Assembly: GCA_021442155.1 (NCBI GenBank)
Contig: CM038220.1
Span: 74,821,817 to 74,885,816 of the forward strand
Reading direction: 5' to 3'
DNA: 64,000 nt
DNA from: Cymbidium sinense
Taxonomy: Eukaryota > Streptophyta > Magnoliopsida > Asparagales > Orchidaceae
Position numbers and translations under genes: made by a program. Under the pieces are notes generated by a model that had not been told where the DNA came from, searched no databases, and worked only from the letters and a program-made list of their open reading frames with translations. Shown here in pieces: positions 21,501-57,500 of this stretch (position 1 is the first letter of the stretch; the number at the start of each line of letters is the position of its first letter).

Positions 21501-22261
21501 CTCACTTATACCTTTCATACATTCATGTGTGCATGTGAAAATTGGATAAGAATCCCTTTTTTCTACTTAATGAAAATCATGCATCATAAGCATTCAAATT
21601 TTCTTAAGTAAACTACTTAGCATTCATTTTAAAGTATGCTAAACATTCTCATTTGTATGTATAGATATGCTCAGGATTCATTTATATGCATGTTATACAT
21701 GTTAGAAAGAATGAAATGATGTATGCTTTGTGAATTTAGTTCACTTTTCTTATTTTTAAGATGCCTTTCTTTTTGAATAGGTTTGTTTAGAATTGATATA
21801 AACTTAGGATTAATTAAAACACATAATAAGACATTCACTAAATAAAACTAAACATGAATCCACTTTAGAAATTACTTAAGGTAGGGAAGGAAAGAGAAGT
21901 TCTCTAATCTTTTCCCTCTCTTTAAAACTTAGTAATTAATTTGTAGGATTCATTCAAACCAAATAAAAATATAAAATAAAATCAACCCAAATTAGTAAAA
22001 TCACTTAAATGAAACCATCCTCTAAGTTGAACACTTTCACATTTAAAAAAAAAAATACAAACCTAAAGCCATAGTTAACCATACCACACAAACCTTCTAA
22101 AGCACACACATTTAGACTAAGTCACCACTTCTAGCTTTAGGTTAGGGCAGTGCATGGTTTGATGTTTGCTTTTGTTTCATGATATATATTTTAGTCTGGA
22201 TGTTAGGGTGAATGTTTGTAGAATGAATGGTAAGATGATTTAGTCTAATCATTCTTTTCTA

Positions 22262-22460
22262 CAAGGGATTGTGCTTAAGGGGCATTATAATAAAAATATA
22301 ATTGCTTTTGCTGTGCAGGTGCTCATACCCCTACACATAATCCAATAAGCTAGGTGGACTTGGCTACCTATGTGAGGGGTGCTAAGTCTAATATACATGC
22401 TTGGGATTTGTGTTGTTTATTTAGCTAATCTTTGTTTTGTAGATTTTAGCTAGAGTTACT
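22262..22460 (+). other. Conserved L5 block with candidate 3' splice sites
   Basis: The run GGATTGTGCTTAAGG, then a pyrimidine-rich stretch ending GTGCAG|GT (near 22318), then TTAGCTAATCTTTG and TTTTGTAG (near 22444), is shared with 9415-9600, 25320-25510, 33330-33507 and, in reverse, 43770-43960. CTAAC/CTAAT is branch-point-like. Splicing is inferred only from the motifs. Confidence 0.35.
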
Positions 22461-24281
22461 TTTACTTTTCATGTATTTTTGCAATTAGGATTTTGGAATG
22501 TTTGTTGTGAGGATTAGGATGAGCATTGGTCATAAGATCTCATCTCATGCACCATGTGAAGCATTTGGAGAAACCACCTTCCAACCATCCAAAAGAAGAA
22601 AGAAGAAAAGAAGAAAAAAGAAGTAAAGAAGAATGAAGAAATGAAGCTTGAAGACCCCCATAACAATGAATTCCTTGCTTAATTGTACTTAATTCATTTT
22701 TAATCCAAGTTGTATAAGGGTAGAGCTCAGCTATCCAATTTGTTTTCAGGTTTGTATGGTGGTGCCCGACCACAAATAGCCTTTTATTCTTTTACGTTAG
22801 CTTTATGAATTGATTGATGACTTGTTTAGCTTTTGCATTAAAATGACATCCTTTCCCTGGTTTCTTCCTTGCTTGATGTATGGCCTGGATGTGGATTAGG
22901 CTCTTAGAAAAAATAAATTATCTACTAAATTAATCAATTCAAAACTAAAATAAATAATTCATAACCTCATCTAAAGCTTAGGTTAAAAATCAAGATAAAA
23001 GAATTAGCAACCCCTTAGTTGGATGAGTATTTCTTTTACAACATCATGCACAAATGCATATTATTTTCACTCTTGATTGGAGGGCTTCCACCTTTGCCAA
23101 AGAAACTTGGTTTGACCTTTGAGAGCCATGGTGGAAACACACCTCCTCCCTTGGCAGATTTTGGCTAGTAATCTTACTTCTCATGCAATAGGCATATGGA
23201 TCCTATAAGCCTGAGTCAAATGATTGTCCAAAAATGAAAATAATATGTAATATAATTTGCATTAGATTTAGGTCATTTGAAGCATACCCTTACATGATTT
23301 AGTCTCTTTAGGGAGTGAGTTTAAGGACCTAGTCTCTTTCTAAATAAATAACAGCTTAACTATCTTGCATAAAGCATATGACTTGCCTACATGAATTTAA
23401 AATCGTAGGAGTTAGTTGGCAGCTACCCCCGAGTGGTTGTAAGTCCAAGCAGATGTGTGGTTTGTCCTCTTTTGTGGAGGCAAACTAAATACCCATTGTC
23501 GCCTTAGATTTAGGTCGTGCTTTTGGCTCTCATCAAAGCTCCCTAGATTTAGGTTCTGAGATTGGTTCTCCCTTCTATTGGCCATAAGCATAAATCCTCA
23601 CATCTTAGGCATTTCATAATCTTATGTTGTGGAATCATAAGCCCTAAACTTCTAATAAAAAGTAAATTCAAATGAATAATTCAATTTCAAAAATGGAAAG
23701 CCCGACCATAGGATAGTTTGAGATGCTTGCTAGGATTCCTAGCATCATGAGCATCTCCTACTTATCTTCCTTTGGCTTTAATAATAACTCTCTCTTTAAT
23801 CAATCCCATTTGATCTTCCAATATAAACTAATCGATTGATAGTCCTACCTATTAAAATCTTTGGAGATAATTACCTTAATCGAGAGTATTCCTAAGGGAT
23901 CTCATTCCTTAGGATGTAATTAACTATGGGGGCTTGCCCCTATAAGGAACTTAACAAACCCAGTTTAAAATAAACCCTACTTTACTTTTTCATATAAAGT
24001 AGGGGAAGAATCTTTGGTACACATGAGACCCATTATCCTTAGGAGTCCTTATTGAGGTGATTAGGTTCCATTGTAGGGTGGTGATCTCTATCTTTTGAGA
24101 TAGCACACCTCTCTTTAATGTCGTACTTGATCACCCTCAATAAAGAACATCTATGGATCTACATGGTGTCAAAAATGCATAAAAAGAAGATGTATATTTC
24201 TATCATCATTTTACCCTGCATAGACTAAAGTTGGAAGTATATTTATCCTTTATAAATTCTTCTCATAAAAATTTCACCACA

Positions 24282-27223
24282 TCTGCATAACAATGACACA
24301 TACTTGTTCATGTCTTTATGCATGTGTATTTGTATGTGATTAATGAATGAAAATCCTCTTTTATATTAAAATAAATGCAATCATGAATGACTAAGTCATT
24401 GAATTAATTAGTCATGAAATTTGGAGCTTGCCTTCTTATATTCATGTATGCAAATTTACATATGTTTGAATGCAAATGGGTATATTGTTTAGACATCCCA
24501 GGAATACGAGGCTTTAGTTAGCCCCAAGGAGGTCATTTGATTACCTCACTTTCCTGGTTAACAATGGCACGCACCTATTTAATTTCATCCCTATGTATTT
24601 TTGTATAAGAATTTAGATAAAGCTTTAAACTAATATGATTAAATAATTCAATCACACAAAATGATATAAACTTCACATACACATATCTTCATCATATAAG
24701 CATGCTAAAGCATGTTGCATGTATAGATACATTTAGGATTAAATCATATGCATGTTACATGTGATGGAAAGGAATGATTTAGCACGTGTCGTGTGATAGT
24801 AATTCAATTAAATTAATCTTAAGACACCTTTCACATTGGATAGAATTATTTAAAGTGAATCTAAACTTAGGATTAATTTAAAATGTGTAATATGATAATC
24901 AATAAAAGAAAACCAAATCAAATTAATATGCTTTAGAAAGTGGCTTAAGGTAGGGATGAAAGAGGATAATCCTCTTTCTTCTCTTTACAACACTTAGTTG
25001 CTGAGTGTAAACAAATGAAACAAAAGAAAACACAAATTAAAATTCTCAAATTAATTAAATAACTTTAAGTGAAATCAACCCTTCTTGTTAAATTAAATCT
25101 TTCTACACTTGAAAACTACAACTCTAATGCTTAGGAAGATATACCACACAAGTCTTAACACACACATTAGAACTAGGTCACCACTTCTAGCTTTATGTTA
25201 GGATGGTGCATGGTGTGATGTATGTTTCATTTTAAGATGTATTATTTTAGATTGGATGTTAGGGTGTATGCATCATAGATTGGATGTTAGGATGCTCCTA
25301 GCCTAATCATATTTTCTATAGAGGATTGTGCTTAAGGGGGCTTAAAGTAAATATAAATGCACTCTTTTGCAAGTTGCTTAAACCCCTAAGCATGATTCAA
25401 GCTAAGACAGGTGGGCTTGGCTACCCATGTGCAGGGTGAAGTCTGAAATTATATATATAACTGCTTGGGATAGTATTTATGTTTAGCTAACCTCTATTTT
25501 ATATGTGTAGTTAGATTTACTTTTTCTATTTTTAATGTAATTTTGCATTAGGAATTAGGATTAGTATTATGGGGGGATTAGGATGAGCAGTGGTCAGAAG
25601 GTTTTATCCCGGGTGCCATGTGATGCCTTGAAGTCCACCAAATCAAAGGGAAAAGAAGAAATGAAGGAGACATGAAGACATGAAGATATAAAGACTTGAA
25701 GATCTCCCATAACACTTATTCATTTATAAATTGTAATTATTCTTACATATTTTGGGTTGTATAACGGTAGAGCTCAACTACCCATCTTTTCTTTTCGGGT
25801 TGTATGGCAGGTACCCAACCACATCAGCCTCTTATTCTTTTGTGTTAGCTTATAAAATTGTTTGATGTTATGTTTAAATTGTACATTATAAATGGCATGC
25901 TTTTCATAGTTTCTTAAATGATTGATGCTTTATTGTGTGGCCTGGATGCGATTAGGTTGTTAAGATAAAAATAAATTTTCTACCCAATTACAAATCATAA
26001 CTAAAGCTTTAAATAATTCATAACCTCACCATAAAGCTTAGGCATTTAATAAGATTAATTAAAAATTTAGCAACCCCTTAGCTAAATGTTGTATGTCTCA
26101 CATCATGCATGCATATTCCTTATTCCTTGAAATTGGGGGATCTCCATCCTTACGATAGAGGAATGCTTGACCTATGAGGGCATCCCTTGTGATGGAGAAC
26201 ACCCTCTTCTGATTTAGCCAACAACCTTACTTCATCATGCATTTAGGCATATGAAAATCCTAAAGGCTTTATCAAAATGAAGTGTCAAAATTGAAATAAA
26301 ATTTGAAAAGATTTTGCATTAAATTAAGTCATTATTCATACCACTCATGCTCTAGTCTCTTAGGGAGTGGGTTTAAAGAATTTAGTCTCTTTCTAAATAA
26401 GTAATAGCCCAACTATCTTGCAATTTTGATATGACCAAATGACATGGTTTTGAATTATAGGAGGAGTTAGCTAGCTGCCACTCCAAGCAGCTGTAAGCTC
26501 AGCAGTCGAGTGGTATATCCTCTCTTATGGAGGTAAACTTTATGCCAATCTTTGCTTAGATTTAGGTCATGCTTTACCTTATGCTTAAGCTCCCTAGATT
26601 TAGGATCCGAGGTTGTTGTTTCCTTCTGGCTACAAGCATAAATCCTCACCTCTTAGGTATTTTCATAATCTTGTGTTGTTGGATTATAAGTCCTAGTGAT
26701 CTAATAAAATTTCAACTCAAATAAGGTAATCCTCTTAAAATTTAAATATATAAAGCCCAATCATAAGATAGAATGAAATGCTCACTAAGTTTTTAGTACC
26801 ATGAGCATTCCCTACTTATTCTCTTTGGCTTCCAAAAATAAGTCTTCTCCTTGAACTTTCTAATTTAATTTTTCAAATATATCCAATCCTTTGATAATCT
26901 AGCTTTGAAATCTTTAGAGACAACAATTGCTTACTTTAATCGAGAGTATTCCTAAGAAATTTACCTTCTTAGGATGTAATTAACTATGGAGACTTGCCTC
27001 CATAGAAAACTTTAGAACCCGGATTAATATAAACCATGCTTTATTCATCCATGTAAAGCAAGGGAAAAATCTCTGATACATTCAAAGACCCATCATGCCT
27101 TGGAAGTCCTTATTAAGTGATTAGGTCCATTGAAGGGTGATCCCTCCACCTTTTGAGATAGTACACCATACCTCAATATCGTACCTGATCACTTTAATAA
27201 GTACTCCCTATAATCTATGTGGT
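24282..27223 (+). mobile_element. Giant LTR (subtype B), right part after nested insertion
   Basis: It continues L5 of the LTR begun at 11506. A tandem unit lies near 24478, GGATTGTGCTTAAGG near 25322, and the GAGCAGTGG block near 25585. The 3'-terminal box runs from about 27020 to 27223. It stops at CTATGTGGT, about 45 bp before the expected ACCACA, where the next forward LTR begins. The missing tail should lie right of the window if the LTR at 27224 was inserted here. Confidence 0.85.
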
Positions 27224-31974: not shown

Positions 31975-32560
31975 ATAAGTATACAGTCTAGAAATCCTGC
32001 GAATATGAGGCTTTAGTTAGCCCTAAGGAGGTCATTTGATTACCTCACTTCCCTGATCTAACAACAACACATACTTCTTTGATTTCATTTAAATGTGTTC
32101 CTACATTAGAATTGGAATGAAATTTTATTTCACATACATAAATGTTTTAATCAAATAAAAATATAATTTTTGCATGATTTTATTTCTCTTGCTTACATTA
32201 TTCATGTGTAGAGATATGTGGGTATATAGTTTGGACATCCGGAAAATGAGGCTTTAACTAGCCCAAGGAGGTCATTTGATTACATCACTTTCTTGGTTTA
32301 ACAAATAGCTTATTTCTCTTACATGTGTATGTATGTGTATAAGGATGAAAATCCCTCTTTTCTACTAAAAAATACATTCATTTATAATAGACTAAGTGAT
32401 TAAAGTAATTAGCCATATGATTTGGGGTCTCTTTCCTTATGTTCTTACATACAAATTTACATGTGTTTGAATGCAAATGGTTATATAGTTTAGACATCCC
32501 GAGTATATGAGGCTTTAGCTAGCCCCAAGGAGGTCATTTGATTACCTCACTTCCCTAGTT
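31975..32560 (+). repeat. L5 tandem repeat, three units in the 5' LTR
   Basis: Units begin near 31979, 32219 and 32484. Each has a GACATCC or GAAATCC box, GAGGCTTTA, and an AAGGAGGTCATTTGATTAC hairpin. Confidence 0.75.
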
Positions 32561-33487
32561 TAATAGTGACACGCACCTATTTAATTTTATTCTTATGTAT
32601 TTTTGTATAAGACTTTGGATAAAGCTCTAAATTAATATGATTAAGTAATTCAATGAAATAAGAAATATAAGCTTCAAATATGCACATCTATGTTCATCAT
32701 TTGAGTGTGCTAAAATATGGTGTATGTATAGATATGATTAGGATTAAATCATATGCATGTTATATGTGATGGAAAGGTATGATTGAACATAAATCATATG
32801 ATAGTATTTCAATTAGATTAATCTTAAGAAGCCTTTCACATTGAATAAAATTATTTAAGGTGAACCTAAACTTAGGATTAATTTAAAATGTGTAATAAGC
32901 CATTCACTAAAGGAAATAAATTACATTAACATGCTTTAGAAAGTGGCTTAGGTTAGGGGTGAAAGGGGGCAATTCTCTTTTCTCTCTTTAAAACACTTAG
33001 TTGCTAAGTGTAGGTCATATGAGACAAATTAAAACACAAATTAAAACTTGCAAATAAATTAAAACACTTGAAGTAAAACCACCCTTTAAATTGAATCTTT
33101 CTACACTTAGAAAATCTTAACTCTAAAGCCTAGTTAGGATATACCACATAAGCTTTAATACACGCATATTAGAATAAGTCACCACTTCTAACTTTATGTT
33201 AGAGTGGTGCATGGTTTTATGAATATTTTATTTTGTGATGTATTATTTTAGACTAGATGTTAGGGTGTATGTTTTATAGATTGGATGTTAGACCATGATT
33301 AGCCTAATCATATTTTTTATAGGGGATTATGCGTAAGGGGCCGCTGAAAAATAAATATAAATGCTCTCTTTGCAGGTTGCTTAAGCTCTTTAGCATAATC
33401 CAAGTTAGGATAGGTGGGCTTGGTTACCCATGTGCAGGTTACTAAGCCCAAATTATAAATATAACTGCTTGAGTTGTATGTATGTTT

Positions 33488-33510
33488 AGCTAACCTCTAT
33501 TTTGCAGGTG
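33488..33510 (+). other. Candidate 3' splice site in L5
   Basis: GCTAACCTCTATTTTGCAG|GT has a CTAAC branch-like element, a pyrimidine tract and TGCAG ending at 33507. The same site is kept in the reverse copy near 43778-43795 and, weaker, near 25490 and 22430. The short branch-to-acceptor distance (about 15 nt) counts against it. Confidence 0.35.
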
Positions 33511-35244
33511 TAATTAGATTTACTTTTCCTATTTTAATGTAATTTTGTATTAGGAATTAAGATTAGTGCTATGGGGAGATAAGGATGAATAATGGCTAGA
33601 AGGCTTTTTCTTGGGTGGCCATGTGATGCCTTTGAAGTGGAGTAAATCAAATCAAAAGAAGATATAAAGATGAAGACATGAAGTGTGAAGAATGAACCCC
33701 ATAGCTTTTTTATTTGTAATTTGTAAATTATTCTTTTATGTATCAAGTTGTATAAGGGTAGAACTCGGCTAGCCATTCTCTTTTTTTGACAGAGATACCC
33801 GACCACACCAGCCTTTTATTCTTTTACATTAGCTATAAAATGTTTGATGTTATGTTTAGCTTGTACATTATAAATTACATGCCTTTTCATGTCTCTTTAT
33901 GATTGGTTTTTGTTGTATGGCCTGGATGCAATTAGGCTCTTAGAAAAACATAAACCTTTTACACAACTACAACTCATAATTAAATTTTTAAATAACTCAT
34001 AACCTCACATAAAGCCTAGGCATTAAATCAAGATAATTAAAAGATTTAGCAACCCCTTTAGTTGTATGGTTGTATGCCTAATATCATGAAGCATCTTCTA
34101 CCACTCTTGCAAAAATGAGGGCCTCCATTATTGCACGCATGGGAACCGGTTGACCTATGAGAGTAACTCTTACTGATGGAGCTTTCACCCTCTTCTCTTC
34201 TAATTTTCCCAATAATCCATTTCATCATGGATTTAGACATATGAAAATCCCAAAGCCTTTATCAAAATGAAGTGTCAAATACAAATAAAATTTGAAAAAA
34301 TTTGCGTTAGACTAAGTCATTACTCATACCACTCATGCTCTAGTCTTTTTAGGGAGTGGGTTTAAGGACTTAGTCTCTTTCAAAATAATAATAACCTAAC
34401 TATCTTACAAATCACATGGCTTGCCTACATGATATTAAAGCATAGGAGGAGTTAGCTGGTGCCCACTCCAGGCAGTTGTAAGCTCAGCAATCAGGTGGTT
34501 TATTCTCTCTTATGGAGGTAAACCTTATACTCATTTTCACTTAGATTTAGATTATGCTTTAGCTCTTATTAAAGATCCATAGATTTAGGATTTGAGGTAG
34601 TTATTTCCTTTGGGCTACTATCATAAATCCTCACATTTTTTGTATTTTCACAACCTTGTGTTGCTTGGATTATAAGTCCTAGCTTTCTAATGAAATGTCA
34701 ACTTCAATAAAATAAATCTCTTCAATTTCAAACATATAAAGCCCAACCATAGGATAGATTGGAATGCTCACTAGGCTTCTTAGTATCATGAGCATTTCCT
34801 ACTTATTCCTTTGGCTTCTAAAATAAGTCTTCTCCTTAAACAATCCCATTTGATTTTCCAAACATAATCAATTTATTGATATTCTAGCCTTGAAATCTTT
34901 GGAGACTTTAATTTCTACTTTAATCAAGAATATTCCTAAGGGATTCCCATTCATTAGGATCTAATTAACTATGGGGACTTACCTCCATGGGGAACTTAAT
35001 GGACTCAATTTAAAATAAACCTTGCTTTACTTTTCCATGTAAAGGAGGGAAAAATCTCTGGTACATTCGAAGACCAATCATGCCTTAGGAGTCCTTATTA
35101 GCTGATTAAGTCCATTATAGGGTGGTGATTTCCATCTTTCAAGATACTGCATCATTTGTTACTATTATACTCGATCCCTTCATTAACTACCGTAAGATTT
35201 GTGTGGTGTCGATATCTCAAAAATAAAATACCACAGATTTTTCT

Positions 35245-35262
35245 GGTGACTCCACTGGAGAT
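35245..35262 (+). other. Primer binding site (arginine-tRNA type)
   Basis: TGGTGACTCCACTGGAGA follows the LTR end after GATTTTTC. It begins with TGG, the complement of the tRNA CCA end. From memory, Ogre-type elements use TGGCGACTC-type sites complementary to tRNA-Arg. This site differs from the expected TGGCGACTCCACTGGGGA by a C-to-T and a G-to-A change, both typical of deamination. The exact tRNA match was not computed. Confidence 0.75.
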
Positions 35263-35764
35263 GGTTCTTCTCTCCATCTTTAGTAGACATTATTGTCTCC
35301 AAGCATTGATAGTGGACATATATTTTATGTAAGCCCAAGAATATTTTTCTTTCTGTTGGCACTTAGGTTATTTCATCCTTAAGTAAAGCTAACCAACTTC
35401 CTTAAGGTTTTAGGACCTCACTCCGTGTAGGTCTTAAAACCCCTATTGGCTCCCCCAATAGGTAAAAATAAATTAACTAAACTAAAGGAGATGACTAAAA
35501 ATTTTTCCTCTTGGTAAGGCATGGTTCATCCCATAATAAATCCTTTGCAGAAATATTATTTTCAAAAAGCACTTTTCAAATTAATTAAAAGTCACATTAC
35601 AAAAGATTTGCAGAAGAATTTTCTAAAAAACTCAAAGATAACCAAACCCCATTTAACAATGTCTACAATTGTTACATGGAGGTTCTTTTCGAAAGAAAAA
35701 TCAAATAATTTTACAATCTCTTTCTCAAAGCACCTTTTTTTTTTTGTAAAATAGCTATCTTTAT
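35263..35764 (+). other. Proximal part of the 5' untranslated leader
   Basis: AT-rich sequence between the primer site and the hairpin array. The frame 35521-35754 has no recognisable motif and ends in a T-tract-coded poly-Phe. A short palindrome CCTATTGGCTCCCCCAATAGG lies near 35442-35462. Nothing else was recognised. Confidence 0.5.
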
Positions 35765-37031
35765 TTCAACATACGTAGGTTTGTTGGATGAAGATCCTAT
35801 TTTCAAATGAAATCATGACATAAAATTGAAATTCCATTTACACATTTCATATGTGCTAAGTTGTAGTTTCCACTTTTCCAAAAGCAATATCATGCACAAA
35901 AATCCCACTTTTGAAAATCAATAAATATAATTGAACTACATTTAACATACTTAGTTTTGTTAAGTGGAACTCCCCTTTTTCAAAACAAAGTCAAAACACA
36001 TTTGAATTCCATTTGACATACCTAAATTTGTCAAATGAGAATTCTTTTTTGCAAAAATCAAAACAAATTGGACTCTACTTAACATACCCACATTTGCTAA
36101 GTAGAGTTACCTTTTCCAAAACAAAGTCAAAACACAATTGAATTCCATTTGACATATCCAAATTTGTCAAATGAGAATTCTCTTTTTCAAAAATTAAAAC
36201 AAATTAGACTTTACTTAACATACCCACATTTGCTAAGTAGAGTTCCCTTTTCAAAAACCATAAACAAATCAAATACAATTGAACTCCATTTGACATACCC
36301 AAATTTGTCAAATGAGAGTTCCATTTTTCAAAATTGAAAATAAATTGAACTCTATTTAACATATCACAGTTGTTAAATAGAAGTTCCCCTCTTTCAAAAT
36401 AAAACAAAACAAACTCATCAAACACACTTGAGCCTTACTTAACATACCTAAATTTGTTAAGTTAAGGTCTCATTTTTCAAATCAAAACAAACTCATCAAA
36501 CACTTGAGCCTTATTTAACATACCTAAATTTGTTAAGTAAAGGTCTCATTTTTCAAATCAAAATAAAGTCATCATACACACTTGAGCCTTACTTACCATA
36601 CCCAAATTTGTTAAGTAAATGTCTTATTTTTCAAATAAAATCAAAGTACATCAAACACATTTGGGCCTTACTTAGCATACTTAAATTTGCTAAGTACCCC
36701 ATTTGAAAACAAATTAAACACATGACACACATCATCAAAAACAAATAAAAATGTTTTCAAAAATATTTTTGAACATACATTTGAGCCTCATTTAGCATAT
36801 CTAAATTTGTGAAGTGAAGACTCCAAACATCAAATAAAAATTTTCAAATAAAGGATAAACAAAATAAATACATCTCCAAAGTCTCTCCAAAGTGAACTGA
36901 ACCTCATTCAACATACTCAAATTTGTTGAATGAAGGATTTAAATCAAAATCAAAATTCAATGGCAAGACACCTCAAATCTTCCAACTAATGAACCCCATC
37001 AAGCATACTTAAATTTGTTAAGCATGGGTTC
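35765..37031 (+). repeat. Array of at least 15 covarying hairpins in the element leader
   Basis: Each unit is an inverted repeat around a 10-nt loop of consensus TAC(C/T)(C/T)AAATT, the 5' arm ending ACA (rarely GCA or CCA) and the 3' arm starting TGT or TGC. Clear units start at 35765, 35939, 36010, 36072, 36140, 36212, 36281, 36347, 36437, 36511, 36589, 36669, 36789, 36902 and 36991, with a degenerate one near 35836. Inner arms include CATTTGACA/TGTCAAATG, CTATTTAACA/TGTTAAATAG, ACTTAACA/TGTTAAGT, TACTTAGCA/TGCTAAGTA and CATTCAACA/TGTTGAATG. Outer arms include GAATTC/GAATTC, GAACTC/GAGTTC, CCT/AGG and GAACCC/GGGTTC. A bulged A separates inner from outer stem in several units. The array lies just upstream of gag on the same strand. 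Structure is seen; function is unknown. Confidence 0.85.
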
Positions 37032-37157
37032 AAAATTCCAAGTTAATATCAAAAATTAATTTTTGAAGACAAATATAAAAGCAACTGGTATGACTCAGTT
37101 ATATTTCAAAAAATATAGTGATATCAACACAGTTAGTTCTTTCGAAATTTAGTTGCT

Positions 37158-37439
37158 ATGGCTCCCAACAAGTTTGCTTTATCTTCTCCTTTAATGTAGA
37201 TCTAGCCTTGGATCAGGCCAATCTCACCTAGACTGATGCCACACATCTGATTTACATTGGCCACAGTTTTGAGAGAGTCTGAAACTTGTGAGGGGATAGC
37301 CCTCACAATGGTCAGCATGGAGGTGGCGGCTGGACAGACGCCACTCATCTATTTTGACATCCCTTCTGACTCTGAGTTCCGCTCACTAAAGAGGATGGTC
37401 TGTGGTTCTCACCGATCAAGATCATCGTGCTTTAGCTGA
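37158..37439 (+). pseudogene. gag: gag N-terminal fragment
   Basis: Translation from ATG 37158 gives MAPNKFALSSPLM, then TAG, TAG and TGA within about 95 bp. It is then open from TTG 37257 to TGA 37437 (60 codons, including EVAAGQTPLIYFDIPSDSEF). The early stops sit in codons one transition away from Gln or Arg. No domain is recognised in this part. Confidence 0.5.
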
Positions 37440-37639
37440 GGTTTGTCCCTACTGTAGCCTTGGTGCGAGCTAGCACCTCCTCTTTGGTCCCCTCAAAGGG
37501 GAAAGCTATGTTGGCATCTAAGATAGTTTCCCCTACCTTCTAGGTAGGTTCTAGTTCTCACAATGCCCTACTCTCCTACACCCAATGCCACAAGAAAAAT
37601 AGGAAGATTAAGGACACCACGAGAGAGCGACAAGGGAGA

Positions 37640-37950
37640 TTGATGTTGCATCCCACATTTCCTAGGAAGGTTCTCCACAGGAGGTCTCCCATTTCTTGGG
37701 TGGTAGCAGATTCCATCCCCTCTCCAGTTCAGATGGAGAGGAAGATGTTAGGAGGATTATTGCATCACCTTCACCACCAGCTCATTATGAAGTACCAACT
37801 AGGGAGAGGAGGAAACTCTATGCTAGTCTCTAGACAGTTCTATGCCAGGTTGGCAGAGCTTATGGACCCTCAGAGTCTGGAGCACTATTTGATTTAAGGT
37901 CAATGATTTTCAGCAGTGTCAATTGTCAGATCCATAGGGTGAGGGCCATT
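37640..37950 (+). pseudogene. gag: gag N-terminal half, block with QFYARLAELMDPQSL
   Basis: The frame 37640-37897 ends in a conserved-looking helix-rich stretch, RQFYARLAELMDPQSLEHY. The preceding residues read better in the next frame (TRERRKLYASL), which indicates a one-base indel near 37830. After the stop at 37895 the adjacent frame continues with DLRSMIFSSV. Similar blocks exist in gag of large Tat-type elements as far as I recall. Confidence 0.5.
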
Positions 37951-38769
37951 GAGGCTAGAGTAGTAACCTAGGTGACCAGTAGAGAGAGATAGAGGTATGC
38001 CCAACAGTCGGCGGCCTCCACCCTTATTGATTTTCCCGATCAACGCCACTAGGGCTGATCGTACTTATAGTATAGTCCTAACAGGCACCATCAGTCACTA
38101 AAGGAGAGTTCCAGCAAAGAGGCAGTGGTTTCACCACCATCACACTGCTCCACTCCTCATCCACCATCACCCATTCAAGTTCCCCCCTTCAATAGTTCCC
38201 TCCAAGATTTAGAAATTTGCATCCAGGGAGAGGAGATCCCCATTTGGTGATCCGACTACGGCCTAAGGATCCCACACCATCTACTCCATTAGCTGAGGTT
38301 AGATTGAGCTCCCCCATTTGACCTTCCACTTCATCTATGGTGAAGAGCGACTGGCGAACCAAAAGTGTTGTGGTCATGCCACTACCGCAGTCGCTAGTAG
38401 CAGTAGAGGAAGGGTGGAATGACAGTACAGTTCCCATGGCAGTTGTCCCTCCCAGTGAGAGTACCCATTCAGTAGGCAGTTTTAGATGCATAGAGTTAGA
38501 CAAACATAGCCTTATGTAATCAAGAGAGTGAGTGTTTGAGCCAGCAAAGTGTAAGATCGATCATTAGATCATATCCTAGAATAGTATTTTTTTGAAAAGA
38601 GAGAGATTCTTGGGAGTGATCATTCTGATCAAGAGGAGAATATAGTAGACTTCGACCCCAATAAAGAGTATCTATTTGAGGACTCAATAGAAGTTCATAT
38701 GATCGACACCTGAGGATCCCTTCTCAGAGACCATCATAGTCAGGAAGGTATTATGGTTGAAGAGGATGA

Positions 38770-39205
38770 CACTGCTCATTCAACCCAACACCTCCTCCAA
38801 TAGCTCAAGCAGAAGAATGAGTAGGTCAGTTGAATGGAGAGGAAGATTGAAGACTTATTAGTTGCAGTTCTAGCACTTCAAAACCAAGCTCCAACATTAC
38901 AGCCTAGTCCTATGAATTCTGATAGGACTGAGCTCCTACATGTTTTGGATCCTCCCAAGAGTGCATCTCCCATGGATCAGGATAGTGGAAGCTTGCATAA
39001 GAAGGCCATAGATAGTACCTCTATACAAGAGAAAGACCTCAAACAAATGGTGGAACAACATGTGAGGGAAGCATTGTCGCATGCTCGGGATACTTCATCC
39101 ATTCCAATGGGTAGACCCTACCTAGAAGAATTTGACACAGTCCAGTATCCCAAAGGGTTTGTGCCACCTTCTTTCAAGATTTTGATGGGAACCCCAAAGA
39201 TATAG
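38770..39205 (+). pseudogene. gag: gag middle part: coiled coil and start of core
   Basis: This is the longest gag frame (38834-39205, 123 codons). Upstream in the same frame, HLLQ-stop-LKQKNE-stop-VS-stop-MERKIEDLL shows a heptad-like coiled-coil stretch broken by three stops. It contains EQHVREALSHARDTSS and then YPKGFVPPSFK, a typical lead-in to the gag core. The frame then breaks: SFKI should be followed by FDGNPKDIVHF, which is found in the next frame, so one T was lost near 39182. Confidence 0.7.
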
Positions 39206-39500
39206 TGCACTTTGCAGTAATGTCGAGGTGCACTTCTTTTTTGCTTGTTCGTTAGTAGTCTATCAAGGATTGCATTCAATTAGTATGTCCAGCTTCCCAA
39301 TGATTCGGTAAAGACATTTGTTGAGTTAGAGAAACTCTTCATTAAGAGGTTTGCTGGAGCTCAGCAAAGGGTAACTGTGGGCGACCTTATTATGGCATAA
39401 TAAAATCCCAGTGAGTCCCTCGTTGATTATATTCTTAGGTGGCAAAACTTGAGTATGAAATGGGAACTACCTATTTTAATAGCATGCCATAGAAATTCTT
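39180..39500 (+). pseudogene. gag: gag core (Retrotrans_gag-like), frameshifted
   Basis: FDGNPKDIVHFAVMSRC near 39181 is followed by a stop. After further shifts comes a block near 39300-39460 reading VKTFVELEKLFIKRFAGAQQ, then RVTVGDLIMA, two stops (TAA TAA), and NPSESLVDYILRWQNLSM. The RF-x-GAQQ and ESL-x-DYI-x-RW pattern is characteristic of the plant Ty3/gypsy gag core. It confirms the plus strand and the gag identity. Confidence 0.8.
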
Positions 39501-39975
39501 CTTAAGAATATTCATGACCCGGTTGCTTTCATGCTCATGGGATTTACTATCAAAACATTTGAGAAACTAATCAACAAGGTGGCAAGTCTATAAGGTAAAG
39601 TCAAATAGTTACCTTTTTATCAAGTCAAAGTCCAAGCCACAGAAAGCTTATGAGAAGAAGCCAGGGGTAGTAGTGTCAATTGATAAGGGGAAGCAAATGG
39701 CCAGAGTTTAGTTTGAGAGACCTTGAGCTTAGCAGCCATCACTTCCACCTCCTCTACCACACCTCGTCACAGCCACCATCCAAAGGCCATTGCCACCACC
39801 ACCTCCTCACAGACTTCATATCCACCACCATATAACTATTACTCACCTAGTCGTTTGAACAAACTAAATAAGCCTATTCATTTAAAAGGGAGGTAGTCAG
39901 GAAGATCTTTAAGAATCTCTTAAAGAAGCTTGATTTTTAGTTACGAGCCTAAGAGACTGGAGGAAGTGGGCAAGA

Positions 39976-40060
39976 ATGATGATCCTAACTTCTACCCCTA
40001 CCACTGCATGTTTGGCCATGTCTTGGAGGATTGCATCACCTTTGGGGACTAGCTACAAGT
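39976..40060 (+). pseudogene. gag: Zinc-knuckle remnant of gag
   Basis: The frame reading DDPNFYPYHCMFGHVLEDCITFGD resembles the CPYH-x4-GH-x4-C knuckle of Tat-type gag. The first Cys appears to be Tyr (TGC to TAC), so zinc binding would be lost. A stop (TAG) follows four codons after the last Cys. Confidence 0.6.
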
Positions 40061-40225
40061 TAGGCGCCATTATCATCCCTAAGGAATACTTATTAGAACA
40101 ACCATCTAGTTCTATTAGAGTAATTCTTGGGGATACATATGATCCTCTTAAGACCAAAGAAGGTTAGGATATCTCCTTATCTTTAACCTCTAAGAAAATT
40201 ATTTCTAAGATCAAGAAAGTTATAG

Positions 40226-40588
40226 GTGCCTAAGGTAGCTAAGGTAGCTAAAACCTCCAACATCAAGGAAGTTTTGCAAGTTGTCAAAGACAACTTGGGG
40301 ATGGTGGGAGCTCAGCAGCCCTCACTTGCCCTGGATACTCCAATAGCACAACCGTCCGAGTCAAGCATTCTATCCACCATTATAGCTACCACTTTATCTA
40401 GTGCTTCTTCTAATAGGAGTGTTGTATCAGTGGATAAGGGCACCAAATCCCTTACCCCGCTTACTTTATTTGATTTTTATCATGTACCTCTACCCAAAAA
40501 GAAATCAATGAAGAAACTTGATTCCACTTACTTCTTCTCTACTTTTGATGTTCTTGATTTTATTCATCTAAAAACTCTCCAAGTCTAG
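40226..40588 (+). pseudogene. gag-pro linker frame, 120 codons
   Basis: An open frame rich in Ser/Thr/Lys with no recognised domain. By position it lies between the knuckle and the pre-protease block, so it is probably polyprotein linker. The following 300 bp (to 40890) continue in broken frames with acidic stretches such as LESSDSEGPIGE. Confidence 0.4.
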
Positions 40589-40897
40589 AATATGATAGCT
40601 CTAATAATTTTGGTCATTCTTCACCCGACTTAGAAATGGATTATCCATTCCTAAATCTCATGGGTTCACCCCTTGAGATTGACTTGGAGTCATCTGACTC
40701 TGAAGGTCCCATAGGAGAAGCTATGTGTACCCGACGAGTAGGTAGAACCTTCCACCATATCATCTCACAAAGTCACCGAAGTTAACCTTCATAGTGACAA
40801 GGTTCTACCTTCTAGGGTAGCACCTCAAGATAAGGGTAAGCAAGTCATTTTTATCGATCAGACATCCCATCTAGCAGGGATTCTGCCTGCAAATACT

Positions 40898-41125
40898 TTG
40901 ATGGATGGACAACTTAGAGTCAATTACAATGTTCTCGCTCACCTTAGGAGGTTACCAGCTAAGCTAAGCATATATGACGCCCTTATCTTATCCAAAGAGA
41001 TGAAAGAGTCATTGATTAAAGCTTTACTTGAATTATGTTTAGCTCAGTTGACTACTAAAGGAGAGGAGGCACATTACTCTAAGGAAGTCCTATAAGTCAC
41101 ATTCATAGATGAAGACTTCTCTTAG
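40898..41125 (+). pseudogene. Pre-protease conserved block (Tat/Ogre-type)
   Basis: The frame 40898-41095 contains [20 protein letters not shown], then [18 protein letters not shown]. This helix-rich block precedes the protease in Tat/Ogre-group polyproteins. After the stop (TAA at 41093) the same frame reads VTFIDEDFS, matching the usual ITF-x-DED-x-lead into the protease, then a shift of one base near 41122 enters the protease frame. Confidence 0.7.
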
Positions 41126-41500
41126 GGATGATTGAGCATAATCATCCCCTCTACATCACGATCGACATGGGCATCTTCAGATTATCTAAAGTATTGGTTG
41201 ATCTAGGTGCATCAGTGAATATTATGAGTCTAAGAACCCTTGCCTACTTGAAGATTGACATTTCCAAACTTTCAAAAGAAAAGATAATGTTGAGAGGATT
41301 CAATGAACAAGGTGAGAGGGCCTTAGGTTCCATAGTGTTACCTTTAGAGATAGATGATTGGAAGACTACAACCAAGTTTAATATTATATACTCAGATACA
41401 TCTTTCAATGCTTTGCTAAAGAGACCTTGGATATATGAAAATAATATGGTTCCATCCTCTCTACACTAGTGCATCAAGTTCATGAGAAGTGGGATTTCAT
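41116..41500 (+). pseudogene. pro: Retropepsin-like aspartic protease
   Basis: The frame 41128-41469 shows HPLYITIDMG, the catalytic loop VLVDLGASVNIM, LRGFNEQGE, and the C-terminal NALLKRPWIYENNMVPSSLH. In plant gypsy proteases the loop is D-x-G-(A/S)-(A/S), so the catalytic Asp is kept. GRPW is changed to KRPW. A TAG after PSSLH stops the frame, but the translation beyond it (CIKF) fits the family. In a living element this enzyme cuts the Gag-Pol polyprotein. Here it has no start of its own and lies one frame away from the preceding block. Confidence 0.8.
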
Positions 41501-41619
41501 ATTATGCAAATGAGATCTCAAGCCATTCACAGTTCATGAGGTCAAAATATATGAGGATGCAATCTATTATCTCCCTCAAAATCAATAAGTATATTCTCGC
41601 AAACTTGGCCAAAGTTCAA

Positions 41620-41664
41620 AAATAAAAGAAAAAGAAGAAGAAAAAGAATGAGAAAAAAAATAAA
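41620..41664 (+). repeat. Purine-rich tract in the linker
   Basis: About 45 bp of almost pure A/G (AAAAGAAAAAGAAGAAGAAA and so on), coding for poly-Lys in one frame. It is followed directly by an LTR-derived patch. It is far from any 3' LTR start, so it is not a convincing polypurine tract. Confidence 0.5.
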
Positions 41665-41713
41665 GTGAATAGGTCCATTATAGGGTGGTGATTGTAAGTC
41701 CTCACCTCTTAGA
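41665..41713 (+). repeat. LTR-derived patch inside the coding linker
   Basis: 41665-41693 matches the 3' LTR box GTGATTAGGTCC...TAGGGTGGTGATT (as near 24046 and 35105) with one mismatch. 41694-41712 matches the L5 segment TAA(A/G)TCCTCACCTCTTAG (as near 26639). The two pieces lie about 500 bp apart in the LTR but are adjacent here. Confidence 0.7.
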
Positions 41714-42056
41714 ATCATCCTCAAGTCAAGAAGTTGATGTAGAACTTAAGGATGATTCATATAAAGATTTAATAGAATTACCTTTTGATTGATACTTGTC
41801 ATGTGTTCTAAACTTAGCAAAGAAAGGGTTAATCCCACATACTTAATCAAAGCACAAGGCGGACTATTTTCAATGAATATGGAAGAACAAATGCAAAAGC
41901 TCTCAATTAAGACTGGGACTAGAATTCAGTATAGTGGTTCCAGTTGACGATGATGATTACTGCCTAGTCATCACCAATCATTTGAAATTTGATTGGTTCT
42001 TTTCAAATCACATTAACTCATATGAGCAGGTATGTTTAGAAACTTTATATAGTCAA
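41714..42056 (+). pseudogene. Protease to reverse-transcriptase linker, cut at 42057
   Basis: It reads EVDVELKDDSYKDLIELPFD, then a stop, then NLAKKGLIPHT in shifting frames. A last open stretch (about 41940-42056) reads VPVDDDDYCLVITNHLKFDW and on to LETLYSQ. No reverse-transcriptase motif appears before the reverse LTR begins. The flank is GTCAA (42052-42056). Confidence 0.55.
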
Positions 42057-44205
42057 TGTGGTGTTTATTTTTGGATGTGTGACACCATGTAGATCTTAGG
42101 GGGTACCTATTGAAGTGATCAAGTATGACATTAAGGAATGATGCACTATCTCAAAAGATAGAAATCATCACCTTATAATAGACCTAATCACCTAATAAGG
42201 ACTCCTAAGGCATGATGGGTCTTCAAATATACTAGAGATTTTCCCTACTTTACATGAAAAAGTAAAGTAGGTTTATTTTAAGTCGGGTCCATTAAGTTCC
42301 CTATAGAGGCAAGCCCTCATAGTAAATTACATCCTAAAGAATGAAATCACATAGGAATACTCTCGATTAAAGTAGAAATTAAAGTCCTCAAAGATTTCAA
42401 AGTTAAGATAATCAATAAGTTGGTTATTTTGGAAAATCAACTTGAATAGGATCAAGGAGAGGACTTATCGAAGCCAAAGGAAATAAGTAAGGAATGCTCG
42501 TGACACTAGGAAGCCTAGTGAGCATTTTAATCTATCTTATGGTTGGGCTTTATATGTTTGAAATTGAGAGGATCAATTTTATTAAAGTTGACATTTTTGT
42601 TAGAAAGCTAGGACTTATAATCCAACAACACAAGAATGTGGAAAAGCCTAAGAGGTGAGGATTTATACTTGTAGCATGAAGGAAACAGCAATCTCAGATC
42701 CTAAATCTAGGGAGCTTTGGCATAACCCAAAGCACGACCTAATTCTAAGAAAAAATGGGTATATGGTTTACCTCCACAAGAGAGGATAAATCACCTGACT
42801 GCTGGACTTACAATCACCTAGAGTGGCTAGCCAGCTAACTCCTCCTATGCTTTAAAACCATGCAAGCAAGTCATATATTTTTGCAAGATAGTTAGGTTAT
42901 TATTATTTAGAAAGAGACTAAAGTCCTTAAACCCACTCCCTAAAGAGACTAGAGCATGAGTGGTATGAGCAATAACTTAGTCTAATGCAAATCTTTTCAA
43001 TTTTCAATTGATTTTTTTGACTCTTCATTTTGACAAAGGTCATAGGATTTCTTATGCCTAAATGCATGTTGAAATGAGATTATGGGCTAAATCAGAGAGA
43101 AAGAGGTGATTTCCAAGAGGATGCCCTCATATGTCAAGCATTCCCTTATCATGCAAGGATGGAAATTCTCTATTTTCAAGAGCGAAATAATATGATATGC
43201 ATGTTGTGAAAGATTTAACCATTCAGCTAAGGGGTTGCTAAATCTTTTAATTATCTTATTTAATGCCTAAGCTTTATGGTGAGATTATGAGTTGTTACTT
43301 GGGTAGAAAATTTATTTTTCTCTAAGAGCCTAATCGCATCCAGACCACATATTCAAACATCAAACAAGTAAGAAACTAAGAAAATGCATGCCATTTCTAA
43401 TGCACAAGCTAAACATAACATCAAACAATTTTATATCTATCACAAAAGAATAAGAGGCTGATGTGGTCGAGTGCCGTCGTATAACCCAAAAAATAAAAGA
43501 TGAGTAGTCAAGCTCTACCCTTACAAAAAAAATGAAGGAATAATTATAATTATAATGAATGAATGATATGGGGGTTTTCATATCTTCATTTCTCCTTCAT
43601 TTTTTTATGTCTCTTCCTTCTCCTTTTGATTTAATTTGCTCCACTTCAAAGGCATCACAAGGCCTCCCAGGACAATGCCTTCTAGCCACTATTCATTCTA
43701 ATCTCCCATAGCACTAATCCTAATTCCTAATGCAAAAGTACATTCAAAATAGAAAAAGTAAATATAATTACACCTGCAAAATAAGTGTTAGCTAAACATG
43801 CATACAATCCCAAGAAATTATATGATATTTGGACATAGCACCCTGCACATGGGTAACCAAGCCCACTTGTCATAACTTGGATTATGCTTAGGGTTTAGGC
43901 AACCTACAAAGAGAGCATTTATATTTATTTTTAAGTGCCCCTTAAGCATAATCCCTTATAGAAAACATGATTAGGCTAATCATGGCCTACCATCCAATCT
44001 ATGAAACATACACCCTATCATCCATTCTAAAACATCACATCACAAAATAAAATATACATCAAACCATGCACTGCCCAAACATAAGGCTAGAAGTGGTAAC
44101 TTAAGCTAATGTGTGTGTATTAAGGCTTGTGTGGTATGTCCTAACTAGGCTTTAGAGTTATAATTTTCTAAGTGTGAAAAGATTTAACTTTTATATAAGG
44201 GGTGG
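42057..44205 (-). mobile_element. Giant LTR, reverse orientation, 3' part (subtype B), nested
   Basis: It starts TGTGGTGTTTATTTTTGG, the complement of the LTR end ACCACA. It then runs backwards through the 3'-terminal box (42070-42300), the CATGCTCTAGTCTC block (near 42950), the GAGCAGTGG block (near 43690), the acceptor-like CTGCAAAATA (near 43778) and CATGCACTGCCC (near 44065). It is broken at 44205 by a forward LTR. It interrupts the coding element in the opposite orientation. Confidence 0.85.
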
Positions 44206-50101: not shown

Positions 50102-53100
50102 TGTTGACCTCATTTTTTTTTTTTTTTTGAATGAGCTCTCAACCTCTCCATCTTAGACATAGGATTTATCTTAGACACTAAGAGTTCCTTAGTCTTAAGA
50201 CACTTATAGTGATTAGGTGAACACTCAACCTAACCCTAGAGACTTAGAAGAGTTAGCCATAGGAATAGATTTTGCCTTAGGGGTGTTATGAAAGCTTGCT
50301 TATCCTATAGCTTGAACCAAATCCTCACTTCCTTCTTTCAAGTCAAACTCCAAATTCAAAGTCAAACTTCAAACTCAAACCAATTCTGAATCAAATCTCA
50401 AATCAATTCAATGGATTTTCTCAAATCATGAATCAATTCCAAATGATTGAAATCCATGATCAAATCCAAACCCAAAATATTTCCTAAGTCACTTTGATTC
50501 CATCTTATGGACTTAGCTTAAATCAAATCCAAATCAATTTAAATTCAAGAAATTTTCTCATGGCCCATTTATATTCTCATTTATATTCACAAATATAAAT
50601 GAAATATAAATTCATATGACCAAAATTAAATCCAAAACTCAATTCCAAGTTCAAAAATCTTTCCTAAGCTTTGACTTCACCTTATGGACTTAGCTCAAAT
50701 CAAATCCAAATTAATTCAAATTCAAGAAATTTTCTCATAACCCATTTATATTCTCATTTATATTCACAAATATAAATTCAAATAACCAAAACTAAGTTCA
50801 AAAATCAAACCAAATCTAACCTAAATCTAACTTATGCTTCTTCAAGTCAAATTCTTGAACTTAGCCAAATCAAACTCAAATCAATCCAAATCATTGGATT
50901 TTTTTCATGATTCAATCAATCCTTCAATCATGAATCCAAATATAAACACAAACTTCAATCATCAAACCAAAACCAAATTTATATCTCAAGTCCAAATCAA
51001 ACCCATGTTCATTCCTTTGAACTTGAAATTGTCAAGTGAATCAAAACTCATTTGACTCCAAATCACTTATAAATCGATTTATATTTCAATCATAGGTCCA
51101 TATGTGAGTTCAACCAAACTTGAATCAAGCCTTGATCAACCCAATTGACTCACTTAGGCTCACTTGATCCAAAGTGACCTAAAGTACCCTTTTGAGCCAA
51201 ATTCTAATTCTACCCAAATGGGATTGAACTAAGCCTACCTAAGCCTCACATTGTGAGCAACAATCATCATAAGATGATTAATCAGCCAAATTGGGTCAAA
51301 CCAAGTCAAACTTAAGGGTTGACCAAGTCAACACTTAACCAAAATGAAACCTAAACTTGACAAAATCCACCATAAGCCAAATTGATTGAAACCATTGATC
51401 AAAATGAATTCATGATCAATGTTTGAACTTGACCATCATTTGAGCCTAACCTAGTCCAATTGGCCACTTGACCCAAGTTGACCCAACTTGACCTAAAAAG
51501 TCAAAATGTGTCAAATCTTGATCTAAGCCAAATTGATTATAACCAATGGGTCAAATTCATTCTAAACCACTTTTGAACTTGACCAAAACCTCAATTGGCC
51601 AACTAGACCCAACCTAGGCCAATTGACCATTAACCCAACTTGACCTAAAAGTTCAAATTGAGTCAAAATCAAATTAAACTAAAATTTGGTTAGAACCAAA
51701 GTTTGCAAAACATTTCAAATGACCAACCAAACCTAAACCAACCCATGACCTAACCCAATTGGGTCAAATGGGTCAAATTACTCAACTTGACCCATTTGAC
51801 ATAAATGAAATCAAATGAACCAAATCCATATATAAACCAAACTGAACCAAACCAATGATTCGAACACATTTCAAATGTTCATATAAACTTGACCCTTGGT
51901 TTGATCCAATTTGACCAATTGGTCAACTTGACCCATTTTGACCTAAATGGGTCAACATGAGCTAAATCATATCAAATCAATTACAAATTCATTGAAACTT
52001 GGCCCAACCCATTTTTCACTCATACCAAACATATTCAAACTGAAATGAAAGCCAAATGACCATTTTACCCCTAAGTCAAAGGGTAATTCTTGGCCAAATT
52101 CACTTAGAATTTGATCAAATCCTCTTCATGGCCACTTGACACCCTCTTAGTGGACTCCATGGACACTAGTAAGAGTGGTGCACTTGACCCAATGGGTTTG
52201 TTAAACCCTAAGGCCAAAACCAACCAACCCAATGGGCATGAGCACATGGGATCACTCCCACACTCCAAATCAGCACATGGGAACCTCTCCACTACCTTCC
52301 TCTGCAAAAACCAAACCATGTGCAAGCTAAAATGACCTAACAAACCCATTGCATTTGATCAATTGATCCAAAATGAAGGAGAGGCTCTCAGTCATCCAAT
52401 TCTTATACGGGGAGATATATTCCCCCTCATTTCACTTGAATTGCATTCATTCATGCTAGATTGACTGAGAGAGACCTAAGGTAAGCTCCCCAAGCTCCTT
52501 CAAGCATTTCCATTTCTCCATTCTCGATTTCTTCAAGCTGAAAATAGGGGAGGTAGGAAGAAAATCCACTTTGCTCAATATCCAATATTAAGCCAATTGC
52601 TCTTGCAAGCACCCTCAGGGGACTCAATCGAGTTGATCCATAGCTTCATCCAAGTTCTCTAGCCATGGGAAGAGGTGTCTAGACCAAGGCCGTAAGCTTA
52701 GGATGAACACTTTGGTCAATTGAAGGAGTCACTCAATCTCAAGCCCTCAAACCTTCTACAGAGCTTCATCTCCACTAGACGAAGCTACTTCGACAGCATC
52801 AGTGATAGCCTCCGGTGAGGTATGGATCAAAATTAAGCCTATAATAAGGAGTGTGTGGTCCTTTGTGAAGAGAATTTTCATCCCATTGCAAATTGATTGT
52901 TGGATGTCTTGCTCCTTGCATGATGATGGTGTGGGTTGAGTTTGAGCTCAATCTGAGCTCAATTGATCTTGGATCTTGCTCTAAAGAGTGGAGGGATGTT
53001 CTCTCCCTCAAGCGAGCTTAGTGATGGATCATGGACCATCCATTTGTGCATTTGGATGGACGGTCATGATCAAGCCGCATAGGATCTATAATTAATCCCT

Positions 53101-54588: not shown

Positions 54589-57500
54589 TGTTGATCTCAT
54601 TTTTAGGATGAGCTCTCAACCCCTCCATCTTAAACATAGGACTTCTCTTAGACTTTAAGAGTTCCTTAGTCTTAAGACACATCTAGTGATTAGGTGGACA
54701 CTCAACCAAACCCTAAAGACTTAGAAGAGTTAGCCATAGGAATAGGTTATGCCTTAGGGGTGTTAGAAGATTTGCCTACCCTATAACTTGAACTAAATCC
54801 TCACCTCCTTCTTCCAAGTCAAAACTCGAAACTCGTATCAACTCCAACTCTAACTCAAACCTTGAACCAATTCAATGGATTTCATCAAATCATGAATCAA
54901 TTCCAAATAATTGAAACCTATGATTGAATCCCATGATTGGATTCCAAACTCCAAAATATTTCCTAAGTCCTTTGATTCCCTCTTATGGACTTAGCCTAAA
55001 TCAAATATAAATCAACTCAAATTCGAGAAATATTTTCACAACCCATTTATATTCTCATTTATATTCACATATATATAAATAAAATATAAATTCTAATCAA
55101 TTAAATCAAATTCAAAATTCAAATCCAAATCAAAAATCTTTCCTAAGTCCTTTGATGTGGACTTAGCCTAAATCAAATCTAAATCAATTCAAATTCAAGA
55201 AATTTTTGCACAACCCATTTATATTCACATATATAAATGAAATATAAATTCAAATCAATCAAACCAAATTCAAAATTCAAATTCAATTCCAAAAATCTTT
55301 CCTAAGTTACTTTGATTTTATCTTATGGACTTAGGCTAATTCAAATCTAAATCAATTTAAATTCAAGGAATTTTATCATAACCCATTTATATTCTCATTT
55401 ATATTCACAAATATAAATGAAATATAAATTCAAATACCCAAAAATAAATTCAAAATGTAAATCCAAATTCAACCAAAATTCAACCTAAACCTTTCAAGTC
55501 AAATTTTTGAAGTTAGCCAAATCAATTTCTAATCAAGCCAAACCCTTGATTTTTCTTCATGATTCAATCAATCCTTCAATCATGAATCCAAATATAAACA
55601 TAAACTCCAATCATCAAACCAAAACTAAATTCAAAAATCAAACCCAAGTCAAACTCATGTTCACCCTTTGAACTTGAAATTGTCAAGTGGATCAAAACTC
55701 ATTTGACTTCAAACCACTTGCAAATGGATTTATATTTCAATCATAACTCCATATGTGAGTTCAATCAAACTCAAATCAAGCTTTGACCAAGCCATTTGAC
55801 CCACTTAGGCTCACTTGACCCAAAATGACCTAAGTACCTTTATGAGCCAAATTCTAATCCTAACCAAATTGGATTGAACTAAGCCCACCTAAGGCTCACA
55901 TTGTGAGAAACAATCATCATAAGATGATCAATCACTCAAATTGGGTCAAATCAAGTCAAACCTAAGGGTTGACTAAGTCAACACTTAACCAAAATAAAAC
56001 CTAAACTAACCGAAACCCACCATAGGCCAAATTGATTGAAACCATTGATCAAAACCCATTCTTGATCAATGTTTGAACTTGACCAAGTCATCATTTGAGC
56101 CTAACCTAGCCCAATTGGCTACTTGACCCAAGTTGACCTAACTTGACTGAAAAAGTTAAAATGTGTCAAAACTTGATCTAAGCCAAATTGATTGAAACCA
56201 ATGGGTCAAGTTCATTCCAAATCACTTTTTGAACTTGACCAAAGCCCCAATTGGCCAACTATACCTAACCTAGCCCAATTGACCATGAACTTAACTTGAC
56301 CTAAAGGGTCAAATTGAGCCAAATCCAAATATGAACCAAACTAATTGGAAACAAAGATACCAATCTATTTCAAATGATCAACTAAACATAAACCAACCCA
56401 TGACCAACCCAAATAAGTCAAATGGGTCAAATTGGTCAACTTGACCCATTTGACCTAAATGAAATCAAATGAACCAAAACCAAATATAAATCAAATTGAA
56501 CCAAACCAAAGTTCCCAACACATTTCAAATGGTCAAATGAACTTGACCCAACCCTTGGTTTGACCTAATTTGACCAATTGGTCAAGTTGACCCAATTTGA
56601 CCTAAATGGGTCAACATGAGCCAAATCATATCAAACCAACTCCAAATTTAATGAAACTTGGCCTAACCCATTTTTCAATCATACCAAACATATTCAAACT
56701 AAAATTAAGGTCAAATGATCCTTTTACCCCTAGGCCATAGGGTAACCTAAAATCAAAATCACTTGGAATTTGGTCAATTCCATTTCATGGGCACTTGGCA
56801 TCCTCTTAGTGGACCAAATGGTCACTAATGGACATGGTGCACATGACCCATTGGGTTTGGGTCAGCCCAACCCAACCTAAGCCTAAAGCTGACCACTTCC
56901 TTCAAATTGAGCACATGAAAATCCTTCCTCCTCTTCACAACTCCCTGGAAAATGAACCATGTGAAAGCTCTGACAACCCAACAAACCCATCAAGGAGGTG
57001 TATTGGATCAAAATGGCAAGGAAGCTTGTGGCCATCCGATTCACCTAGGGGGAGATATACTCCCCCTAATTTCACTTGAATTTCATTCTCTCCTATTGGA
57101 TTGAGCTTAGGGAACTCAAAGCAAGTCATTGCAAGTCTCCCCAGGCCTCCTAAAGTGAGTGAGAATTCTCCATTTCTCGGTTTCTCTAAACCAAAAATAA
57201 GGGAGCTCAAGCCAATTTCCATTTCACTTAATACTCCAAACCAAGCCAATTCCTTCTTCGAGCACCTTCAGAGGGCCTAATCGAACTCATCCCAAGCTTC
57301 TTCCAAGTTCCAAAGGCAAGGGAGGTGGGACTTTGATCAAGACCATGAGCATTTGAAGTGAACAAATTTCATAGGAAGATCCATTCAATCTCAACACCTT
57401 AAACCTTCAACAAGGCTTCATCTCCACAAGACGGAGCTACTTCAAGGGATTCGAGCGCCGGTGATAGCCTCCGGTGAGGTATGCCATTAAACTAAGCATA

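Follow-up and report, generated by a model that had tools for sequence, protein, structure and literature searches.

In Ty1, an LTR retrotransposon, the 5′ end of the RNA forms a domain for packaging and dimerisation (TIPIRT), whose hairpins matter for retrotransposition. Two hairpins are nested in a pseudoknot and carry complementary 7-nt tips, and a homologous array of 14 units goes unmentioned in the available text of the source (PMC5454406). The 3′ untranslated repeats of plant Tat/Ogre elements are tandem arrays in a non-coding part of an LTR element, which perhaps arose from strand transfer; the word "hairpin" is absent from the main text of that source (PMC7004042). In MS2 and other single-stranded RNA viruses several sites bind the capsid protein cooperatively, and the available part of the account describes these packaging sites as scattered through the genome (PMC8472981). 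The leader of plant pararetroviruses is long and structured, and contains small upstream ORFs, according to the accessible parts of two papers (PMC5902531, PMC12786077).

The locus described here is a tandem array of hairpins in the 5′ leader of an LTR retrotransposon of Cymbidium sinense. It resembles each of these systems in part. Its repeats lie on the 5′ side of the element, in contrast to the 3′ position of the Tat/Ogre repeats, its units are arranged in tandem within the leader, unlike the scattered sites of the MS2 type, and it consists of many small hairpins, whereas the pararetroviral leader forms one large hairpin. Leaders with structure and packaging sites in several copies are both known, whereas some fifteen covarying hairpins in tandem in an LTR leader are new as far as our searches go; among the top-listed titles and abstract openings in searches of the open-access literature, which had partial coverage and reached few subscription papers, none described a comparable hairpin array in an LTR element.

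The window analysed, i.e., the whole stretch of 64,000 nt, has a base composition of 66% A+T and contains many old repeats; among its self-matches, the 60 longest listed are 65-86% alike. A blastn comparison of positions 32201-35245 with the window located the 5′ LTR of the element at 32322-35235 on the + strand (start approximate). This LTR is ∼2.9 kb long, and its 3′ end at 35235, with the sequence ACCACA, is near the point where the copies end. Further long LTR copies are present at about 8836-11284, 21654-24102, 24321-27204 and 42057-44190 (the last one reverse); by blastn these four share 71-80% identity with the 5′ LTR, and short partial matches occur besides. A PBS-like sequence that starts with TGG (TGGTGACTCCACTGG; 35244-35262, + strand) follows the LTR, and we take it to resemble the tRNA-Arg type. 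The PBS criteria in the available text of PMC6317226 are a perfect tRNA match within 50 bp or, failing that, a TGG 0-5 bp past the LTR, compared with 8 nt past the LTR end here.

The leader of the element is ∼1.9 kb long. The hairpin array (35644-37031) is placed between the end of the 5′ LTR and the coding remnants, the protease-like one of which begins at 41113. The position originally predicted, within an LTR element's leader and 5′ of the first coding remnants, is thereby supported. The leader also contains, 5′ of the array, two strong hairpins that are unrelated to the array units (35412-35462, + strand; −30.8 kcal/mol for the RNA fold of 35400-35475), the second of which has the arms CCTATTGG/CCAATAGG. 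Removal of the array by splicing of a leader intron was rejected as an option: the best donor, at 35462, scores 7.5, but 106 donors in the window reach a score of 7 or more, and the best listed acceptor 3′ of the array scores 2.6.

Broken coding remnants extend on the + strand from the first ATG 3′ of the array, at 37158, to position 38833, and are followed by an open stretch of 123 aa (38834-39205, + strand). The latter gave no Pfam match and no database relative among the 11 candidates of a protein search, so the name gag-like is our assumption, taken from its position. A remnant of a retroviral-type aspartic protease lies at 41113-41466 on the + strand (RVP_2, E = 0.0026, 18.0 bits, below the cut-off of 20.3). 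One unnamed relative was found for it among 5 candidates (E = 5.9e-14, 57% identity over 58%), and in viral contigs 26 stretches fitted a search pattern and none was confirmed as a protease relative. No open stretch longer than 123 codons is present on the + strand of 37001-42100. The internal region ends near 42056, at the start of the reverse LTR copy. This next copy is reverse, and further downstream the window contains no long LTR copy in the same sense; the element seems to be truncated, with no intact 3′ end that could show a target-site duplication. The reverse copy that terminates the element is itself shortened, and a second repeat family begins almost directly after it.

The core array (35933-37031, + strand) contains 14 alignable units, u03 to u16, each with a 9-bp inner stem, a 9- or 10-nt loop and an outer stem of up to 6 bp. 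Their 28-nt core aligns without gaps except in u09, the one unit with a 9-nt loop, and the outer stem is more variable than the inner stem. An extra A is bulged on the 3′ side, beside the inner stem, in 8 of the 14 rows. The tip reads CATA......TTTG in 13 of the 14 units and CATA..GTTG in the remaining one, and the linkers of the core array are G-poor, consisting mainly of A, C and T. The original prediction had listed the shorter loop of one unit and the recurrent bulged A, both of which were found again, and on rereading the arms that it quoted were borne out at their positions. It had also counted at least 15 inverted repeats sharing the loop TAC(C/T)(C/T)AAATT: there are 14 clean units and three decayed relatives 5′ of u03 (∼14 to 17 related hairpins in total), but the exact loop is present in only 8 units.

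The three decayed relatives, all on the + strand, differ in what they retain. Unit u00 (35644-35685) is recognised by the covariance model with E = 0.017 and folds with −14.7 kcal/mol. Unit u01 (35765-35788) is a hairpin in shifted register that belongs to a direct repeat family (D5; −17.5 kcal/mol for the 60-nt fold around it), and u02 (35828-35870; −9.7 kcal/mol) is divergent and has a different tip. Neither u01 nor u02 was reported by the covariance model built from u03-u16, even at E up to 10, compared with scores of 41-63 bits for u03-u16 themselves. Tandem duplication is seen at two scales within the core: u04-u09 form a two-hairpin repeat in three copies, 136 and 141 nt apart (family D4; 35974-36386, + strand; TRF period 136), and u10-u13 are carried by a repeat of ∼78 nt (36401-36696, + strand; TRF period 78, 3.8 copies). 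Between unit families, identity is 73-77% for inner stem plus loop, 57% for the outer stem and, in ungapped register, 45-47% for the flanks.

Pairing of the arms was then compared with several controls, all within the units of one array that is present as a single copy in a broken element. Across the 13 distinct rows, 93.2% of the 117 cells of the 9-bp inner stem are paired, and five of the nine pairs have changed on both sides; when the partners were slid by 1-3 columns, 27-41% were paired, with at most one double-changed pair. None of 500 shuffles reached the real values on four of five measures, and the fifth (further pair types) was matched by 487 of them. For the whole 15-bp stem in a MAFFT alignment, 87.7% of cells are paired and 10 of the 15 pairs have changed on both sides, against 29-48% and at most four in the slid control; here also no shuffle out of 500 reached four of the five measures, and 489 matched the fifth.

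In a tree-aware null that kept the same tree and the same substitutions and placed them in random columns (n = 1000), the whole stem, whose outer rows were hand-aligned with the structure in view, was 91.7% paired against 79.5% in the null and had 10 double-changed pairs against 2.6, values reached in none of the 1000 replicates. The inner stem, which needs no such alignment choice, had its paired percentage reached in 28 of 1000 replicates under rate-weighted placement and in 4 of 1000 under uniform placement. Swapping arms between unit families, with the same hand-aligned outer rows, gave Watson-Crick pairing at 1638 of 2481 positions compared with 180 of 207 for own arms, and 2030 of 2481 compared with 191 of 207 when G-U pairs were included. 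Among nine representatives, chosen so that close duplicates were left out, none of 20,000 arm permutations equalled the real arms. Double changes on a single branch numbered 4 (null mean 0.56, maximum 4), hence independent events are few, and the mutual information of the five scorable true pairs was mixed, with ranks 1, 2, 5, 18 and 125 of 153. We conclude that the pairing of the arms exceeds what shared ancestry gives, and that the array shows, between its own units, the paired changes beyond shared ancestry that mark a structured RNA. That the two arms of a unit change together, as had been noticed from the letters, was thus confirmed by the permutations, by the whole-stem tree null and by the slid controls.

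The strand on which this structure would act was approached through base composition and folding. The linkers of u03-u13 contain 6 G in 320 bases (1.9%), and every one of 6197 overlapping blocks of 320 bases from the rest of the window contains more, although the lowest of them, at 2.2%, is almost as poor in G. The loops of u03-u16 contain 2 G in 140 bases, and all linkers of u03-u16 taken together have 3.4% G. Because linkers and loops are so poor in G, this base is largely confined to the stems on the + strand, as expected for a sense RNA with open spacers. Folding z-scores per unit (means by hand) range from −1.3 to −6.6 on the + strand, with a mean of about −4.5 and weak values for u03, u12 and u14. 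The − strand averages about −3.4; its value is weaker in 11 of the 14 units and stronger in u04, u05 and u16, and most units fold well on that strand also. When the whole array was folded, the inner stem of 10 of the 14 units persisted, with mean pair probabilities of at least 0.69, and u03, u12, u16 and u07 had values of at most 0.33; when the whole leader was folded, the stem persisted in 11 of the 14. The G-T wobbles that had been read as a sign of RNA are present, with A-C mismatches at a similar frequency (12 G-U and 10 A-C among the stem imperfections of u03-u16), so that no wobble asymmetry favouring one strand was seen. The test is a weak one, since in a dead copy later random change adds G-U and A-C equally. 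Taken together, the sequence of the array leans towards a sense RNA, short of proof.

Our tentative preference, which could well be wrong, is that the array served as a multivalent platform for recognition of the genomic RNA, placed in the leader of a now-dead LTR retrotransposon, with Gag and packaging as the likeliest partner and process. Each unit would fold independently in the sense transcript into a hairpin, and every hairpin would present a near-identical tip, CAUA-NNNNNN-UUUG, while the stem beneath it could change freely in sequence, with G-poor single-stranded linkers spacing the units apart. The full-length RNA would then be selected for packaging by many weak sites acting jointly, with the element's own Gag as the likeliest partner. 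A near-fixed tip, a variable stem, many repeats and open linkers are as expected of a site that is read by its shape and tip and gains its strength from number, and we infer that selection acted on the RNA. The identity of the partner is a guess, with Gag as the first candidate and export factors or the translation machinery next. By analogy, the position before the coding region would fit that of the Ty1 hairpins for packaging and dimerisation, which lie at the 5′ end of the RNA (PMC5454406), and the cooperative capsid-binding sites of MS2 (PMC8472981) are a precedent for joint action of several sites.

The hairpins might instead help the full-length RNA to leave the nucleus or to be translated, by recruiting export factors or by letting ribosomes bypass upstream ATGs, which we regard as unlikely. 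The leader carries 22 ATGs (ATGGCTCCC) upstream of the ATG at 37158, a number that makes plain scanning unlikely, and in cauliflower mosaic virus a structured leader brings in TREX export factors (PMC12786077); shunting in plant pararetroviruses has been reviewed (PMC5902531). Yet the number of ATGs in the array is about that expected from composition (17 against ∼16.5, by hand from the product of base frequencies), and the frame opened by the ATG at 37158 breaks off after 13 codons, which means that this ATG may not be a real start. The shunt structure of plant pararetrovirus leaders is a single long hairpin, from which many equal small hairpins differ.

A different origin of the paired changes, quite unlikely in our judgement, is correction at the DNA level: template switching during replication or reverse transcription would copy one arm onto the other, and the paired changes would then come from mutation and not from selection on RNA. 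The compensated changes are all transitions, A-T to G-C or the reverse, and together with the near-equal numbers of G-U and A-C imperfections this agrees with such a process; in addition, abnormal strand transfer between co-packaged copies has been hypothesised for the tandem arrays of Tat/Ogre elements in the part of PMC7004042 available. But arm correction should erase flaws first, yet 8 of the 14 rows have the bulged A, and an A-C mismatch common to u05 and u07 survived their duplication. It also leaves the conserved tip and the G-poor linkers unexplained.

Dimerisation of the genome through loops kissing at AAATTT, a role proposed in the original prediction, is very improbable. The stretch AAATT is present in the loop of 10 of the 14 units, where many weak contacts could sum, and kissing loops are used by Ty1 RNA, although Ty1 employs complementary 7-nt motifs instead (PMC5454406, available text). 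The self-complementary part inside the loop amounts to just four A-U pairs (AATT), and the self-complementary loop has not been kept in all units, AAATT being missing from u03, u05, u07 and u09. Since u05 and u07 are duplicates with a common variant that lacks AAATT, the active element seems to have tolerated that variant. Equally improbable is that the array gives rise to small RNAs, or that it is a neutral tandem repeat with palindromes that came about by chance: tandem duplication is evident, but the stems, at 9-15 bp, are short for Dicer products in plants, and drift gives no excess of own-arm pairing.

No second array was found in the window with the covariance model, the best single site outside the array being 21610-21648 on the − strand (E = 0.052), and Rfam gave no matches in the window. 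In viral contigs, 42 stretches had one match each and none had a spaced pair. Among genome contigs a sole spaced pair was found, in a Treponema bin, within a tandem repeat of ∼21 nt (by eye); its two sites reach 19.7 bits (E = 0.0018 for that 8-kb stretch) and 16.7 bits (E = 0.011), far below the 41-63 bits of u03-u16, and it was judged unrelated.

That an LTR family selects, exports or packages its genomic RNA through about fifteen equivalent hairpins on G-poor linkers, with the number of units and the stem sequences turning over while the tip and the fold are kept, is a doubtful proposition. How LTR retrotransposons in large genomes select their own RNA is little understood, and a repeated hairpin with a fixed tip would be a defined ligand, accessible to synthesis and to binding assays with Gag or host factors. 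The hairpin signature can be searched for in other genomes, and the array would show tandem duplication and selection on RNA structure working jointly.

The window contains other repeats as well. At 51901-51960 and 56561-56624 there is another repeat family, which contains tandem 27-29-nt units with self-complementary stretches like TTGACCCA/TGGGTCAA that fold well. Tandem repeats of 175-182 nt occur at 1097-1619, 16977-17342, 54983-55472 and 59416-59826, within several copies of the second long repeat family, two copies of which adjoin LTR copies and begin with TGTTGACCT.
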